Virus record (IMG/VR): IMGVR_UViG_3300049734_000151
Location: 1 to 25,126 of that record
DNA: 25,126 nt
Direction: 5' to 3' (one strand)
Origin: a virus
The notes beneath the pieces were generated by a model. That model saw only the letters and a program-made list of their open reading frames with translations, had not been told where the DNA came from and made no database searches. Made by a program: the position numbers and the translations under genes. Within the stretch, counting starts at the first letter, position 1. Each line of letters opens with the position of its first letter. Shown here piece after piece: positions 18,326 through 25,102 of the stretch.

Positions 18326-18652
18326 TCATGCCCCCTGGCCCCAGTGCGAGGATTGCAGCGCGGTCTTGCGCTTGTGGTGGGTTGAGCAGAGGGCTTGCAG
18401 GTTGTCCGCGGTGTCTGGGCCACCGAGTGCTCGAGGAGTGATGTGGTCGACGTCGGAAGCCCGAGCGTAGCACTGGTCGATCATGCAGACGTAGTGATCG
18501 TGCAGATAGCGAGCACGCAGCCGTTGCCAGGCCGAGTCATAGCCGCGTTGGGCCGCGGTTGGCCGATACGGGGTGTGCAGGAAGCAGCGCGACGTGCCGT
18601 TGGTGACGAGCTCGGGACAACCGGGCCGCGAACAGGGGCGCGATGGTGTCAT
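18326..18652 (-). CDS. HNH endonuclease adjacent to terminase
   Basis: A 108-aa HNH nuclease. An N-terminal Cys/His group (C7, C11, C23, H26) precedes the core: YDSAWQRLRARYLHDHYVC, then SDVDHITPRALGGPDTADNL (D69, H70 and N84), then LCSTHHKRKT (C89, H92, H93). HNH proteins next to terminase are established parts of the packaging machinery of cos phages and act with TerL to cut DNA. Its ATG overlaps the upstream stop (ATGA). A homing nuclease is the alternative, but the position argues for packaging. Confidence 0.9.
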   Translation of the reverse strand: MTPSRPCSRPGCPELVTNGTSRCFLHTPYRPTAAQRGYDSAWQRLRARYLHDHYVCMIDQCYARASDVDHITPRALGGPDTADNLQALCSTHHKRKTALQSSHWGQGA

Positions 18653-18969: not shown

Positions 18970-19078
18970 TTCGGCGCAAGTCTACACATCCGTGAAACGT
19001 CGCGTGAAACATAGAGCAGCGCTCGTTCATGGTGGCCAGATATCCATCGTGCAGCCGCCAGAACTGCTCGGGCGTCAC
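18758..19078 (-). CDS. Possible overlapping or truncated small gene
   Basis: A GTG at 19076-19078 overlaps the initiator stop (GTGA) and opens a frame beginning MTPEQFWRLHDGYLATMNER, which reads like a real phage protein N-terminus. It runs normally for about 36 codons, to 18970. It then continues for about 70 codons entirely inside the Cys-motif gene, where it becomes Arg-rich shadow sequence. Either a short coupled gene has lost its 3' part or the overlap is real. The first 36 codons are the only part I trust. Confidence 0.35.
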   Translation of the reverse strand: MTPEQFWRLHDGYLATMNERCSMFHATFHGCVDLRRNAYPCRSSVRKLRLHRLRRCRRLLRSPGHGRRRADRLLPRGPTRSRGSASQSSRLLPDRAQGLCPRCRVA

Positions 19079-19947
19079 GGCGCATGGTCCTCGAAGGTGC
19101 GGGCCCGGGCCAGGTAGCGCTCGTGTTCAGCGCGGATCTCGGGCGGGACCGTGGCGGGATCGAACGGCGGTCGAGTAGCCATTGCGGCCAGCTCGGCTTC
19201 GATCTCGGCGGGCACTGGAGGGGGCAGCGCTCGCGTCTCGGGGCGTTGTGGACGGACCTTGTGGCGTGGCGCATTGTCGAGATGCTCTCGGACGCTGACG
19301 TTGTCGGGGAACACCTCAGGGCACAGCGGACACTGCTGTTGCTCGGCGCGCAGCACGATCGGCCCGTCCTGTGTCTCGGCCAGGACGCGCCGCGGCGGCC
19401 CCTGGGCCAAGCCGCGAGCGCGCGCCCGTGGCCGGGGAGACTGCGTTAACGGACCTACCGGTGGTAGGTCCGGTTGGTCCGGTCCGGTAGAGTGCTGACT
19501 GTCATCAATGTCAGCGCTGACATCATGCTGACTGTCAGCAATGTCAGCGCTGACGTCAGCATGACCGGGTGCTGACATTCGGTCCCGCCGGCGGCGCTGC
19601 GCCTCCCGGTTCGACGCCTTGCGCAGCTCGCGCTGGGTGTTCAGTTTGCCGGCGTAGTCGAACCAGTCATGGAGTACATAGCCCTGTGCCGTGGCGTCCA
19701 GGAAGCCCGCTGACTGGAGCGCGTCGACGAAGCGGGCTGCGTCCTTGAGAGGCCAGCCGGCCGCGGCGGCCAGCGCCTCGCAGGGCACCAGGCCGACGAC
19801 GCCGTCGGCGTCCGCGTTGTCGAGCCCCCACCACCAGAGCTCGTGCAGATGGCCGATCAGCTTGTGCCGGTCAACGCGCAGCGCGCCCACGACCTCCAGC
19901 GTCTTCCGGTGTCGCCCCAGCGATTGATGCGACTCGATCCAGGCCAT
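19075..19947 (-). CDS. Replication initiator / replisome organiser with zinc finger
   Basis: A 290-aa protein in three parts. Residues 1-105 form a winged-helix domain typical of phage replisome organisers (MAWIESHQSLGRHRKTLEVV, then IGHLHELWWWGLDNADADG, then FVDALQSAGFLD, then VLHDWFDYAGKL). A basic helix (QRELRKASNREAQRRRRDR) and a disordered linker follow; the linker contains DVSADIADSQH and DVSADIDDSQH in tandem, encoded by DNA iterons. Residues 203-230 form a C2H2-like finger (C206, C209, H222, H229). It should bind the origin and recruit host helicase machinery. I chose the ATG at 19947 (TGATG overlap with the HNH gene). The DnaD-like C-terminal domain of classical organisers is absent. 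Confidence 0.75.
   Translation of the reverse strand: MAWIESHQSLGRHRKTLEVVGALRVDRHKLIGHLHELWWWGLDNADADGVVGLVPCEALAAAAGWPLKDAARFVDALQSAGFLDATAQGYVLHDWFDYAGKLNTQRELRKASNREAQRRRRDRMSAPGHADVSADIADSQHDVSADIDDSQHSTGPDQPDLPPVGPLTQSPRPRARARGLAQGPPRRVLAETQDGPIVLRAEQQQCPLCPEVFPDNVSVREHLDNAPRHKVRPQRPETRALPPPVPAEIEAELAAMATRPPFDPATVPPEIRAEHERYLARARTFEDHAP
19451..19576. other. Candidate replication origin inside the initiator gene
   Basis: Within the initiator coding region lie, in order: a perfect hairpin with 9-bp arms (GGACCTACC, loop GGT, GGTAGGTCC; 19451-19471); three copies of GGTCCGGT (19467, 19476 and 19481); and two 33-bp direct repeats (19493-19525 and 19526-19558; 31/33 identical). Nine GCTGAC/GTCAGC half-sites occupy 19494-19576, including the perfect 16-bp palindrome ATGTCAGCGCTGACAT (19508-19523). 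The repeat block is visibly less GC-rich than its surroundings. Iterons inside the initiator gene are the lambda O arrangement. The origin role is inferred. Confidence 0.6.
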
Positions 19948-20267
19948 CAGCTCGCCCGTCCGAACACGCGTCGCTGCGCCTCCCACGCCGGCCGCCAGTC
20001 CTGCTCGATCTCCCGCCCGGTCCTCGCCCGCTCACGCGCCGCGGCGAGCCACGCCAGGGCCTCGGCACGCGTCGGCGTGATCGGTTTTTCCACGCGATTG
20101 CAATGAGCACACATCAGCACCAGATTGGACGGGTCGTCGGAGCCGCCGACGCAGCGATCGACCAGGTGGCCGATGTCCCACATGCGACCAACGCGCGAGC
20201 CGCACACCTGGCACATGCCGCGGTCACGGCGATAGATCGTGTAGCGCTGCGAGCGCCAGCCAGTCAT
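19947..20267 (-). CDS. HNH endonuclease (early operon)
   Basis: A 106-aa HNH protein, distinct from the packaging one. MTGWRSQRYTIYRRDRGMCQ leads into CQVC (C19, C22). The core DIGHLVDRCVGGSDDPSNL (H34, N48) and LMCAHCN (C53, C56) complete the zinc and catalytic sites. The C-terminus is a charged helix. It lies directly before the initiator gene with a TGATG overlap. It could process DNA during replication or be a small mobile nuclease; the sequence does not decide. Confidence 0.88.
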   Translation of the reverse strand: MTGWRSQRYTIYRRDRGMCQVCGSRVGRMWDIGHLVDRCVGGSDDPSNLVLMCAHCNRVEKPITPTRAEALAWLAAARERARTGREIEQDWRPAWEAQRRVFGRAS

Positions 20268-20482: not shown

Positions 20483-20768
20483 CGGCCTTCGTGCCGCGGC
20501 GCCGACGGCCGGCGGACGGGATGGAGGCGGTCCCTTCCGCCGACTCGCCGACACCATTGGGCGAGGCGCTGGCGATCGCCGCCTCGAGCGGCGTGCGCGC
20601 GACAGGCGCCTCGTGAAGCGTGAGAAAGACGTCTTTGTCGAGCAGCTCGTTGAGCGGATCGACCTCGATGTCGTGGGCCTCGAACATCACCCTGGTCACG
20701 GTCCTGGCGTCGTCGGAGCGCGACGGCGTGGTGCGCACGCTGGCGAGTCGGGCGCGGAACTGCGTCAT
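20475..20768 (-). CDS. Hypothetical early protein
   Basis: A 97-aa protein. A basic N-terminus (MTQFRARLASVRTTPSRSDD) precedes the only ordered-looking part, RTVTRVMFEAHDIEVDPLNE then LLDKDVFLTLHE, and a low-complexity basic tail (AGRRRRGTKADG). No family is recognised. It overlaps the Gp3-like gene by 4 bases (ATGA) and the next small gene by 8, so the three are probably co-translated. Confidence 0.7.
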   Translation of the reverse strand: MTQFRARLASVRTTPSRSDDARTVTRVMFEAHDIEVDPLNELLDKDVFLTLHEAPVARTPLEAAIASASPNGVGESAEGTASIPSAGRRRRGTKADG

Positions 20769-22348
20769 ACAAGCGTCTCCTGACTGGGCTCGGCCGTGCG
20801 CTGGGGCTCGGCGAGCGCCTGTTTCTTGGCCTCGATCCGGTCGCGCAGCTTCTCGCCCTTGCGCACGACGTCCTCGTGCTCGGCAGGGAACTGCAGCTTG
20901 AGATCGTCGAAGGCCACCTCGAGCCGCGCGGCCTCCTCGACCAGCTCGGCAAAGCGCTGCGCGATCGGCGAGCGGACCGTGACCGGTGGCTGCTTCTTAT
21001 TTTTTCCTGAGATGGAATCCTGCCGGTCAGGGGCCGCCTGCTCTGGAGGCGGAGCGAGCGGCTCGCCCGGTTCTGGGTCCGGGTCGGGACCACCGACCGG
21101 CAGGATCTCGCCTGTCGCCAGATCGACGACCTGGTCGTCGTCGTCGTCATCGGTGCCGTAGATCTCCGCGTACCGCCGCGCATTGCTCTGCCGCTGCTCG
21201 GGCGCCGTCGCGGCCTCGACCGCGCGCCGCGCGGCGACCATCAAGGCCGAGGCCTCGGCGTCCGATGCCTGCTCGAGGAAGCGCATCAATGAGTCGGTGC
21301 GACCTTCCGAAAAGGTCCACAGGAACTGCGCGCGCGCCTCTTCCGAGTCGAGTGGCGAGCCCTTGACCGCCGCGAACCACGCCTGCTGGTAGTAGCGCGC
21401 ATCGGCCCGCGGGCCGGCCTTGAGCTCGGCGAGCGCCGAGGGTGGCGGCGCGTCCAGGTCGACATCCAGCGTCTGGGCCGCGTCCTCGACGGTTTCCTCG
21501 GCCGGCAGCGGCAGGCGCATCGCTTCGCCCTCGGCCAGCGCCTGGCCAGCCAGGTTCTGCCACAGTCGCGGCGTGAGCTCGAGCTCGGCCGGCGGCACGA
21601 AGCGCGGCGTCCACACGCCGATCATGCGGTTGTGCCCGGTCGGGTCGGCGACTTCCCGCCACTCGAGCGTCAGCCGCAACGGCAGCCCGGCCAGGCGCCC
21701 GCCGGTCAGGCCGGACAGCTGCTTGAGCGAGCCCCAGATCGAGCGCAGGCTGTGGCGCGACGTGAAGCGCAGGCGATAGACGCCCAGCCCATCGGGGAAA
21801 TGGATCGTCGGCGTACTGCCCTTCCAGTAGCTGAGCACGAAGAAGACGCTGACGCTGACGCTGCACTGCTCGACCAGCCGCGCGTACTCGGCGCTGCCGG
21901 CCGGGTGCACCCGCCGCGGCTCGGGCACGAGCACCGTCCTGTTGTTCTGGCGCACTTCGCGCACGACGATCTCGGTCAACTGGTGCTCGTCGCCGTGCAT
22001 CTCGAGCCGTGAGGCCGAGCGCTTCTCGAAGCGCTGCTGGATGAACTGGCTGGGGTCGTCGAACGGGACGGCGATCTCGAGCCAGCGGTAGTCGCGCAAC
22101 TCGAGCGCTGTCCTCAAGCCTGGCGCGCGGAGAGAATCCTCGGGCGTCATGTGGATCCACTTGGCGTCGGCCTGGCGTGAGGCGCGCGGGATGGGCGGGT
22201 CGCGCGAGGTGTCGGTGTAGCCAGCGCTGATGGTCGCCAGCCAGGGCACGCGCGGCTGCTCGTTGGACAGGCCGCCCTGGTACTTGTCGAGCGGCTGAAA
22301 GCGGTCGATCGGATAGGTCTGGCGCGTGGTGGCAAGACTGGTGCTCAC
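20765..22348 (-). CDS. Large early protein with Gp3-like/metal-binding-like core
   Basis: A 527-aa protein and the largest early gene. The part from about residue 90 to 235 (LEIAVPFDDPSQFIQQRFEK, then VYRLRFTSRHSLRSIWGSL, then GGRLAGLPLRLTLEWREV) resembles the core of the Gp3-like phage family, often annotated 'hydrolase or metal-binding protein' and related to the phiC31 gp3 directionality factor. The Cys pairs common in that family are missing. The C-terminal half is acidic and disordered, with a run of six Asp encoded by a GTC-repeat tract near 21132-21150, and ends in a coiled coil (about 455-510). GTG start with GGAGGAG 5-6 bases upstream. Function is unproven; recombination or DNA metabolism is the best guess. 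Confidence 0.6.
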   Translation of the reverse strand: MSTSLATTRQTYPIDRFQPLDKYQGGLSNEQPRVPWLATISAGYTDTSRDPPIPRASRQADAKWIHMTPEDSLRAPGLRTALELRDYRWLEIAVPFDDPSQFIQQRFEKRSASRLEMHGDEHQLTEIVVREVRQNNRTVLVPEPRRVHPAGSAEYARLVEQCSVSVSVFFVLSYWKGSTPTIHFPDGLGVYRLRFTSRHSLRSIWGSLKQLSGLTGGRLAGLPLRLTLEWREVADPTGHNRMIGVWTPRFVPPAELELTPRLWQNLAGQALAEGEAMRLPLPAEETVEDAAQTLDVDLDAPPPSALAELKAGPRADARYYQQAWFAAVKGSPLDSEEARAQFLWTFSEGRTDSLMRFLEQASDAEASALMVAARRAVEAATAPEQRQSNARRYAEIYGTDDDDDDQVVDLATGEILPVGGPDPDPEPGEPLAPPPEQAAPDRQDSISGKNKKQPPVTVRSPIAQRFAELVEEAARLEVAFDDLKLQFPAEHEDVVRKGEKLRDRIEAKKQALAEPQRTAEPSQETLV

Positions 22349-24507: not shown

Positions 24508-24535
24508 ATGATTGCAAGCATGTTTGTATGCGCGT

Positions 24536-24555
24536 TACTCTCACGCGTGGGAGTA
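24536..24555. promoter_or_regulatory. Operator-like palindrome OR
   Basis: TACTCTCACG and CGTGGGAGTA are 10-bp arms with no spacer and one mismatched pair. The palindrome lies 14 bases before the repressor ATG, downstream of the likely promoter, a good place for autoregulation. Its sequence differs from the palindrome at 24480-24507, so the two may bind different proteins. Confidence 0.5.
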
Positions 24556-24568
24556 CCGGCATCGGCAC

Positions 24569-25102
24569 ATGAACCACTACTTGCGCGAGGCGATGCGAGC
24601 GCGCGGCTGGACCATTCCGAAATTGGCTGAGGCGTGCGATGTCGCGGTGGGCCTTGCGCAGCGCTGGGTATCTGATAACCCGCGCTACCGCGTCACCCCG
24701 AGCCCGGCTTCCTGCGAGAAGATCGCCACGGCGCTTGGCGTCGATTTGGATGAGACGCTCGCCATAGCCGGGCATCGCCCGCCGCGGCAAGAGCATGTCG
24801 ACGACGATCCGATCGAGCAGTACATCCGCGAAGGCACACGCCAGATGCACGAGCTGCTCGACGGCATCCCACGCGTCTACTGGCCAACGATTGTCAGGAA
24901 GGCATTCGACCGGGCACTCGACGGTGCGCGAGATATGGCACAGCTCCTGGCCGACCAGCAAACACGCGAACGCCCAACTACAACACGCGGCGTCGCCCCA
25001 GCTAAAGGCTCATCAGCGCGTTCTAGCTACGGCGCTGACACAGGTCCCGACCAGCTAAAGACTCGTCAACGGGTCGGCTCACTGGCCCTAGCAGGCGCAT
25101 AG
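24569..25102 (+). CDS. XRE HTH repressor (CI-like)
   Basis: A 177-aa protein. Residues 3-60 form an XRE helix-turn-helix (LREAMRARGWTIPKLAEACD, then VGLAQRWVSDNPRYRVTPSP, then ASCEKIATALGVDLDETLAI). A helical middle part (about 76-130, IEQYIREGTRQMHELLDGIP) probably dimerises. No LexA-type peptidase domain (no Ser-Lys dyad region) is present, so induction by RecA self-cleavage is unlikely. The last 45 residues are low-complexity; their DNA carries two direct repeats in different reading frames. I chose the ATG at 24569 because the HTH starts right there; an upstream ATG at 24512 lies in the operator region. In a circular genome this gene is followed by att and int. Confidence 0.85.
   Translation: MNHYLREAMRARGWTIPKLAEACDVAVGLAQRWVSDNPRYRVTPSPASCEKIATALGVDLDETLAIAGHRPPRQEHVDDDPIEQYIREGTRQMHELLDGIPRVYWPTIVRKAFDRALDGARDMAQLLADQQTRERPTTTRGVAPAKGSSARSSYGADTGPDQLKTRQRVGSLALAGA
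24998..25071. repeat. Two 21-bp direct repeats near att (candidate arm-type sites)
   Basis: Positions 24998-25018 and 25051-25071 match at 18 of 21 bases and share CCAGCTAAAG. The first is read in codon phase 0 of the repressor gene and the second in phase 2, so the likeness cannot come from protein conservation. Both lie 37-110 bases from the terminal repeat, the distance of integrase arm-binding sites in attP. Role inferred. Confidence 0.5.

Follow-up and report, generated by a model that had tools for sequence, protein, structure and literature searches.

A putative phage replication origin within the linker-coding DNA of its own initiator gene

In phage lambda, the origin repeats bound by the initiator O lie in the middle of the gene, between the N- and C-terminal domains (PMC7466680). 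Lambda iterons are partly palindromic. The replisome-organizer gene 38 of phage SPP1 carries its own oriL with direct repeats (PMC6316719), and in the RepA_N plasmid pSK41 the Rep boxes are central in rep, with pPR9 representing a swap of an N-domain together with its origin (PMC5703833). To our knowledge, RepA_N plasmids do not carry a polar short array. The origin of iteron plasmids lies outside the rep gene. Winged-helix Rep proteins (RK2 TrfA, F RepE) bind iterons and one strand of the DUE at the same time, and none of the DUE repeats is dispensable (PMC4081077). Basal unwinding in bacteria involves DnaA-boxes followed by DnaA-trios, a polar short repeat that is read as one strand (PMC8287927). 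Here, we describe a stretch of viral DNA (positions 19450–19576) that is very likely, with a probability of roughly 0.85, a phage replication origin inside the DNA encoding the linker of the phage's own initiator. Binding by the initiator and origin function are inferred, and we found no binding, unwinding, or replication data for this initiator family.

The window, by which we mean the whole stretch of DNA that was analyzed, is the linear virus record IMGVR_UViG_3300049734_000151 of 25,126 bases, a contig representing a 25-kb fragment. The initiator gene (19075–19986, minus strand) encodes a protein of 303 aa, the N-terminal domain of which (residues 14–154) matches the phrog_9474 "replication initiation protein" profile with an e value of 4.2e-35. 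The protein consists of an N-terminal helical/winged-helix domain, a disordered linker, and a C-terminal region with a C2H2-like CxxC...H...H motif. In an AlphaFold2 model residues about 11–138 are confident and residues 150–213 are disordered, the mean pLDDT being 58 at residues 141–150 and about 45 at 150–213. Based on this model and a conserved motif, residues about 11–138 (19573–19956, minus strand) are predicted to form a DNA-binding domain that is helical with a winged element; the motif, MAWIESHQ..HPK..GHL..WWWALD..HDW.DY, is conserved across 62 relatives. Comparison of the model with PDB folds gave no match at an e value of 0.001 or less and returned generic winged helices only, and in a viral structure library the initiator resembles primosomal/replisome-organiser-like proteins. 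Pfam searches with the initiator gave no match at an e value of 0.1 or less to Phage_rep_O or the RepA_N domain (PF06970), and none to DnaA.

The C-terminal C2H2-like motif, CPLCPEVFPDNVSVREHLDNAPRHK (19261–19335, minus strand), weakly matches the Pfam model zf-C2H2_4 (e value 0.033), and a closely similar motif is present in one relative (L023). Many relatives carry DnaD-like or YPKKxGK C-domains at this place. It is possible that the C2H2-like C-terminus is a zinc-finger C-domain that contacts the helicase or its loader. The initiator relative in Paenibacillus phage Harrison is annotated as a replication initiation protein and adjoins a DnaC-like helicase loader, and a helicase loader gene likewise adjoins the initiator in the related phages phiPSA1 and Shimadzu; with Pfam and PHROG profiles, no helicase loader was recognized among the scanned genes beside the initiator in our 25-kb fragment. 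Genes for HNH endonucleases lie near the initiator at 18326–18652 and 19947–20267 (both minus strand), the upstream one overlapping the initiator start, and phage Harrison (L128) has the same order of HNH gene and then initiator. Upstream of the initiator, a large open frame (20765–22330, minus strand) does not match any PHROG profile; a role in recombination or single-strand annealing is possible and is suggested by position only.

An initial annotation, made from the sequence alone, had proposed that an iteron-rich origin is embedded in the initiator gene, naming two 33-bp direct repeats with 31/33 identity, a hairpin, three copies of GGTCCGGT, and nine GCTGAC/GTCAGC half-sites. All of these elements were confirmed to be present. 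The 33-bp repeats (19493–19525 and 19526–19558, plus strand, spacing 33) had been described as in frame and as coding for an 11-residue repeat in a disordered linker, and this held: the repeat, DVSADIADSQH/DVSADIDDSQH, begins the stretch where the structure model drops in confidence. Our amendment concerns the unit. The nine half-sites, which we refer to as module A (19494–19576), start at 19494, 19510, 19516, 19527, 19534, 19543, 19549, 19555, and 19571, and the five GTCAGC copies on the coding strand (19571, 19549, 19527, 19516, and 19494) have offsets of 0, 22, 44, 55, and 77. Every offset is a multiple of 11; because the five copies share one 11-bp phase, the 33-bp repeat is best described as three 11-bp turns.

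The claim of an iteron role failed for GGTCCGGT. Its copies at 19467, 19476, and 19481 are the only three in the 25-kb window on either strand, and they are the plus-strand reading of sequence within a polar array, module B (19460–19488, minus strand), which on the coding strand reads ACCGG ACCGG ACCA ACCGG ACCT ACC ACC. There, the copies read ACCGGACCGGACCAACCGGACCTACCACC, mostly in 5-nt steps; they are part of a polar (ACCNN)n array rather than iterons. Module B also holds the window's only ACCnnACCnnACC. The junction 11-mer GTCAGCACTCT (19489–19499, minus strand), GTCAGC-ACTCT, comprises the last half-site and 5 nt ending in T and directly precedes the first ACC, so that the array starts 11 nt past the start of the last GTCAGC. 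The hairpin CGGACCTACC/GGTAGGTCCG (19450–19472) overlaps the end of the ACC array. Its claimed 9-bp arms held in part, as the arms (19450–19459 and 19463–19472, separated by a 3-nt loop) are 10 bp each, one pair more. The window contains no known RNA families, and its six near-matches to the DnaA box TTWTNCACA compare with 6.1 expected; none lies within 19450–19576. The central proposal of the initial annotation, that the initiator gene harbors an origin, is supported as the best reading of the locus, with binding and origin function remaining inferences.

The half-site cluster is more than a product of chance. GCTGAC/GTCAGC occurs 31 times across the full window, nine of them in the linker cluster, and nine half-sites in 126 bp is the densest cluster in the window for any 6-mer, the next best elsewhere being seven. 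When codons were re-drawn synonymously according to the phage's own usage (20,000 re-draws), the mean number of half-sites was 0.6 and the maximum 5, and none of the 20,000 re-draws reached nine. The half-sites occupy all three reading frames of the initiator coding strand and are, therefore, not a by-product of the peptide repeat. Folding of the repeat region as single-stranded DNA gave a z of −8.5. The segment 19491–19580 has 53% GC in a contig of 67% GC, which places it in the lowest 1% of 90-bp windows, yet it is not AT-rich in absolute terms. Cumulative GC skew, proposed earlier as a check, was of no help: on this short linear fragment it has a local maximum and no minimum near 19500, and it lends the origin reading no support.

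We identified initiator relatives at 126 loci in IMG/VR and in the genomes of bacteria and archaea; after removal of copies, 91 distinct genes including that of the window remained, and the relatives are on contigs from Chloroflexota, Bacillota (many Paenibacillus), Verrucomicrobiota, Actinomycetes, and others. Relatives that keep the initiator without repeats would have refuted the initial annotation. This refutation was not met, as the densest 126-bp 6-mer cluster lies inside the initiator gene in 59 of the 91 and ties with flanks of up to 3 kb in 20, with the clusters inside the gene mostly at residues 120–190, that is, in the linker. It is also countered by the array motif, given that 56 of 87 linkers contain at least three ACCnnACC versus 2 of 1,022 segments of neighboring genes from the same loci. 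Overall, the 87 linkers contain 360 ACCnnACC versus 92 expected, distributed over the three frames as 131/100/129, and the control segments contain 71 versus 62 expected. Compared with synonymous re-draws, the linkers were more strongly autocorrelated at lag 11 (t = 11.8), lag 5 (t = 8.6), and lag 10 (t = 7.8) and, to a lesser degree, at lags 4, 9, 15, and 22; the control segments of neighboring genes showed no lag excess. The pattern persists in a thinned set of 20 genes with less than 55% mutual identity (68 ACCnnACC versus 15.9 expected; lag 11 t = 5.3, lag 10 t = 4.4). We conclude that the constraint on the initiator linker acts at the level of the DNA and not of the protein. About a third of the relatives have fewer than three ACCnnACC, some of these having ACA-type arrays and some none, and the 11-bp phasing test applied to single genes is significant in only 34 of 87; many members are, therefore, weak when taken singly.

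The relatives share a common grammar in which 11-bp-phased, lineage-specific half-sites are followed by a polar (ACCNN)n array. Variants of the module A half-site in different lineages include GTCAGC, GTCACG, ACGTGC, GTAACG, GGACGT, GGACAT, and others, and module B has the consensus AC[C/A]N[A/T/G] with a median of seven units. The order is fixed, module A being upstream of module B in all 31 testable relatives (31/31), and so is the polarity, with 369 ACCnnACC versus 2 GGTnnGGT on the coding strand. With the first ACC as the alignment point, the start of the last half-site is commonly at −11, and position −1 is a T in 50 of 70 genes versus 26.9 expected. Because three 5-nt units make 15 bp, the array reads as 5-residue repeats; the resulting peptides (TVPNP, TGPDR, STEHN) vary between relatives, the nucleotide period is constant, and the TVPNP and TGPDR repeats are translations of a 5-nt DNA repeat. 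A G-quadruplex on the NNGGT strand was considered and set aside, as G pairs are missing from the required places in ACANN and AGAGA arrays. The hairpin, regarded initially as an origin component, is present in the window and is no general feature among relatives: it is significant (p ≤ 0.05) in only 10 of 72, and we rejected it as a third universal module and retain it as a minority feature. A minority of relatives (L066, L079, and L035) have strong C-rich/G-rich hairpins, for example CCCCCCTTCGG-ACCCG-CCGAAGGGGGG, directly after the initiator ACC array.

Within this retained architecture the half-site sequence turns over fast. The N-domain tree of 49 labeled relatives requires at least 19 changes of half-site class, and the nearest neighbor of the window's initiator on this tree (L006, 77% identical) has the half-site ACGTGC. 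Covariation with half-site class was not concentrated in the predicted recognition helix (residues 78–95), where identity is 45% within and 43% between classes, compared with 55% and 50% elsewhere. Half-site class is confounded with phylogeny and no specificity residue can, therefore, be named.

Two initiator families with unrelated N-domains also have 11-bp sites followed by an array, of either AGAGA (5-nt) or ACC (7-nt) units. In the phiPSA1-type set (64 distinct initiators, a few with other N-domains), TGTCCGCAATTTGTCCGC...GCGGACAGTTTGCGGACC form direct and inverted pairs 11 bp apart, the half-sites being GTCCGC at 11 bp, and are followed by AGAGA units that translate as REEKRREE; autocorrelation gave t = 17.1 at lag 5 and t = 8.6 at lag 11. 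The second family comprises 28 distinct initiators whose N-domains we take to be of the YdaU/DUF1376 type from the N-terminal motif, without a check against Pfam. In these, AACCANN 7-nt units (lag 7 t = 12.6, lag 14 t = 15.4) come after sites of the GTGCAC type (lag 11 t = 12.5). For both sets, the t values are descriptive and were calculated as though related genes were independent. Some initiators have C-domains that are 96–97% identical and N-domains that are only 21–26% identical, with each N-domain having its own sites and array. The cis element, therefore, belongs to the N-domain, and the site/array module is co-inherited with it, a situation that parallels the exchange between the plasmids pPR9 and pSK41 (PMC5703833). 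Natural swaps are seen in L133, L202, L204, L207, and L212, in which the C-terminal 110 residues are 96–100% identical and the N-domains are mostly unrelated (21–36% identity), with those of L202 and L207 as a near-identical exception; the linker repeats in these genes are, by type, AGAGA 5-nt, AACCANN 7-nt, and GATACA 6-nt.

Could the repeats reflect the protein rather than the DNA? Under this explanation selection or replication slippage favors a repetitive Pro/Thr-rich disordered linker and the DNA repeats are merely codons; it is consistent with the predicted disorder of the linker and with tandem units of 33 and 15 bp, which are multiples of three as in-gene slippage leaves. We regard it as very unlikely, however, since the underlying unit of 5, 7, or 11 nt is no multiple of three, the motifs are spread over three frames and are lost in protein-preserving synonymous re-draws, and the peptide shifts from TVPNP to TGPDR, STEHN, or REEKR while the nucleotide period persists. 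That the repeats are a decayed or neutral expansion peculiar to this phage is all but excluded. The two near-identical 33-bp copies could reflect a recent duplication, but some half-sites are external to the 33-bp units, and the grammar is retained at the same place in relatives whose sequences differ, a family-wide pattern that contradicts this explanation.

Other explanations grant the sites a function in DNA. The half-sites could be operators that serve a phage repressor or allow the initiator to regulate its own gene, without any origin. The palindromic GTCAGCGCTGAC sites look operator-like and a Cro/C1-type HTH gene is present at 24512–25102; against this, the sites are about 400–500 bp into the gene and away from a promoter position, they travel with the initiator N-domain, they are in a fixed register with the ACC array that an operator does not need, and GTCAGCGCTGAC has two exact copies in the window, both in the repeat region and neither at the regulator gene, which together make this explanation very unlikely. 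A closer alternative accepts the origin and assigns the ACC array a role as a half-turn-phased bend in double-stranded DNA or as recognition sites for a helicase loader or primase, instead of as a single strand held by the initiator. In its favor, a 5-bp step corresponds to roughly half a helical turn and an 11-bp step to roughly a full one, array sequences differ by initiator type (ACCNN, AGAGA, AGTAG/ACCAG), and Bacillus subtilis DnaD reads a strand-specific ssDNA element beside that of the initiator (PMC10201434). However, the array tracks the N-domain and not the C-domain, a finding that speaks against C-domain-mediated recruitment of a loader or primase, the strict polarity (369:2) is less expected from a bending element, and the period of 7 in the YdaU-like type is not half a turn. 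We consider this alternative unlikely.

Under the preferred reading, an origin opened at the array, the N-domain of the initiator would bind the GTCAGC/GCTGAC half-sites of module A on one helix face in 11-bp steps and form a nucleoprotein complex. This complex would span the last site and its one-turn spacer (GTCAGC-ACTCT) to reach the ACC array, where the duplex would open and a specific strand of the 5-nt repeats would be kept single-stranded by the initiator or a partner. The fixed distance at which the polar array follows the last half-site suggests that the complex moves on to one array strand as the DNA opens, much like winged-helix plasmid Rep proteins on their DUE (PMC4081077) and DnaA on trios (PMC8287927). 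The sequences show the DNA grammar itself, with its polarity, register, order, frame independence, and co-inheritance with the N-domain; binding of module A by the N-domain, use of the array as a single strand, and the start of replication at 19450–19576 are all inferred. The C-domain, which is variable between phages, would recruit a helicase loader, helicase, or primase.

A bolder reading, which taken jointly with its parts we favor by only a narrow margin, is that many unrelated phage initiators carry one hidden intragenic origin grammar. Its parts are that the array unit is set by the type of N-domain (5-nt ACCNN or AGAGA, 7-nt AACCANN), that the system is a phage counterpart of DnaA-box/DnaA-trio opening, that N-domain and origin are inherited and swapped as one cassette, and that linker peptides such as TVPNPTVPN and REEKRREE are mere translations of the array. 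If this is true, the origins of very many uncultured phages and prophages would be readable from the initiator gene by half-site, register, array, and polarity, and origin specificity, incompatibility of related phages, and origin theft by satellites would be predictable from sequence. The half-site switches on a single protein tree, about 19 or more, would provide a data set for change in DNA specificity, and the arrays a candidate short-repeat code for strand opening outside DnaA. A grammar of 11-bp sites and a polar 5- or 7-nt array is undescribed in the open-licence literature that we searched, which is weak evidence given that subscription papers were outside the scope.

The repeats of the window, like those of lambda O, are located in the middle of the initiator gene. 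Lambda, however, has four iterons (six in Stx phages) and opens in an AT-rich region, whereas the window has 6-bp half-sites at 11 bp followed by a polar 5-nt ACC array; SPP1 differs in its combination of repeats and an AT-rich unwinding element. RepA_N replicons resemble the window in having sites in the linker-coding part, a winged-helix N-domain, and an exchangeable C-domain, the sites of the window being central by position only, and differ in that their binding-site sequences are unlike those of the window. Iteron plasmids differ in that their DUE repeats are 13-mers. With the DnaA-box/trio system and the DnaD element, the features shared by analogy are double-stranded boxes, a short gap, and a polar short repeat (PMC8287927, PMC10201434). 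The position of the ACC array one 11-nt turn past the last half-site resembles the spacing of box and trio only by analogy, with a unit of 5 nt rather than 3; the trios are trinucleotides, unlike the 5- or 7-nt units of the window's family. By function, the locus most likely belongs with the known origins inside initiator genes; such intragenic origins have been described for lambda O, SPP1, and RepA_N, and what is probably new here is the combination of 11-bp sites with a polar short array.
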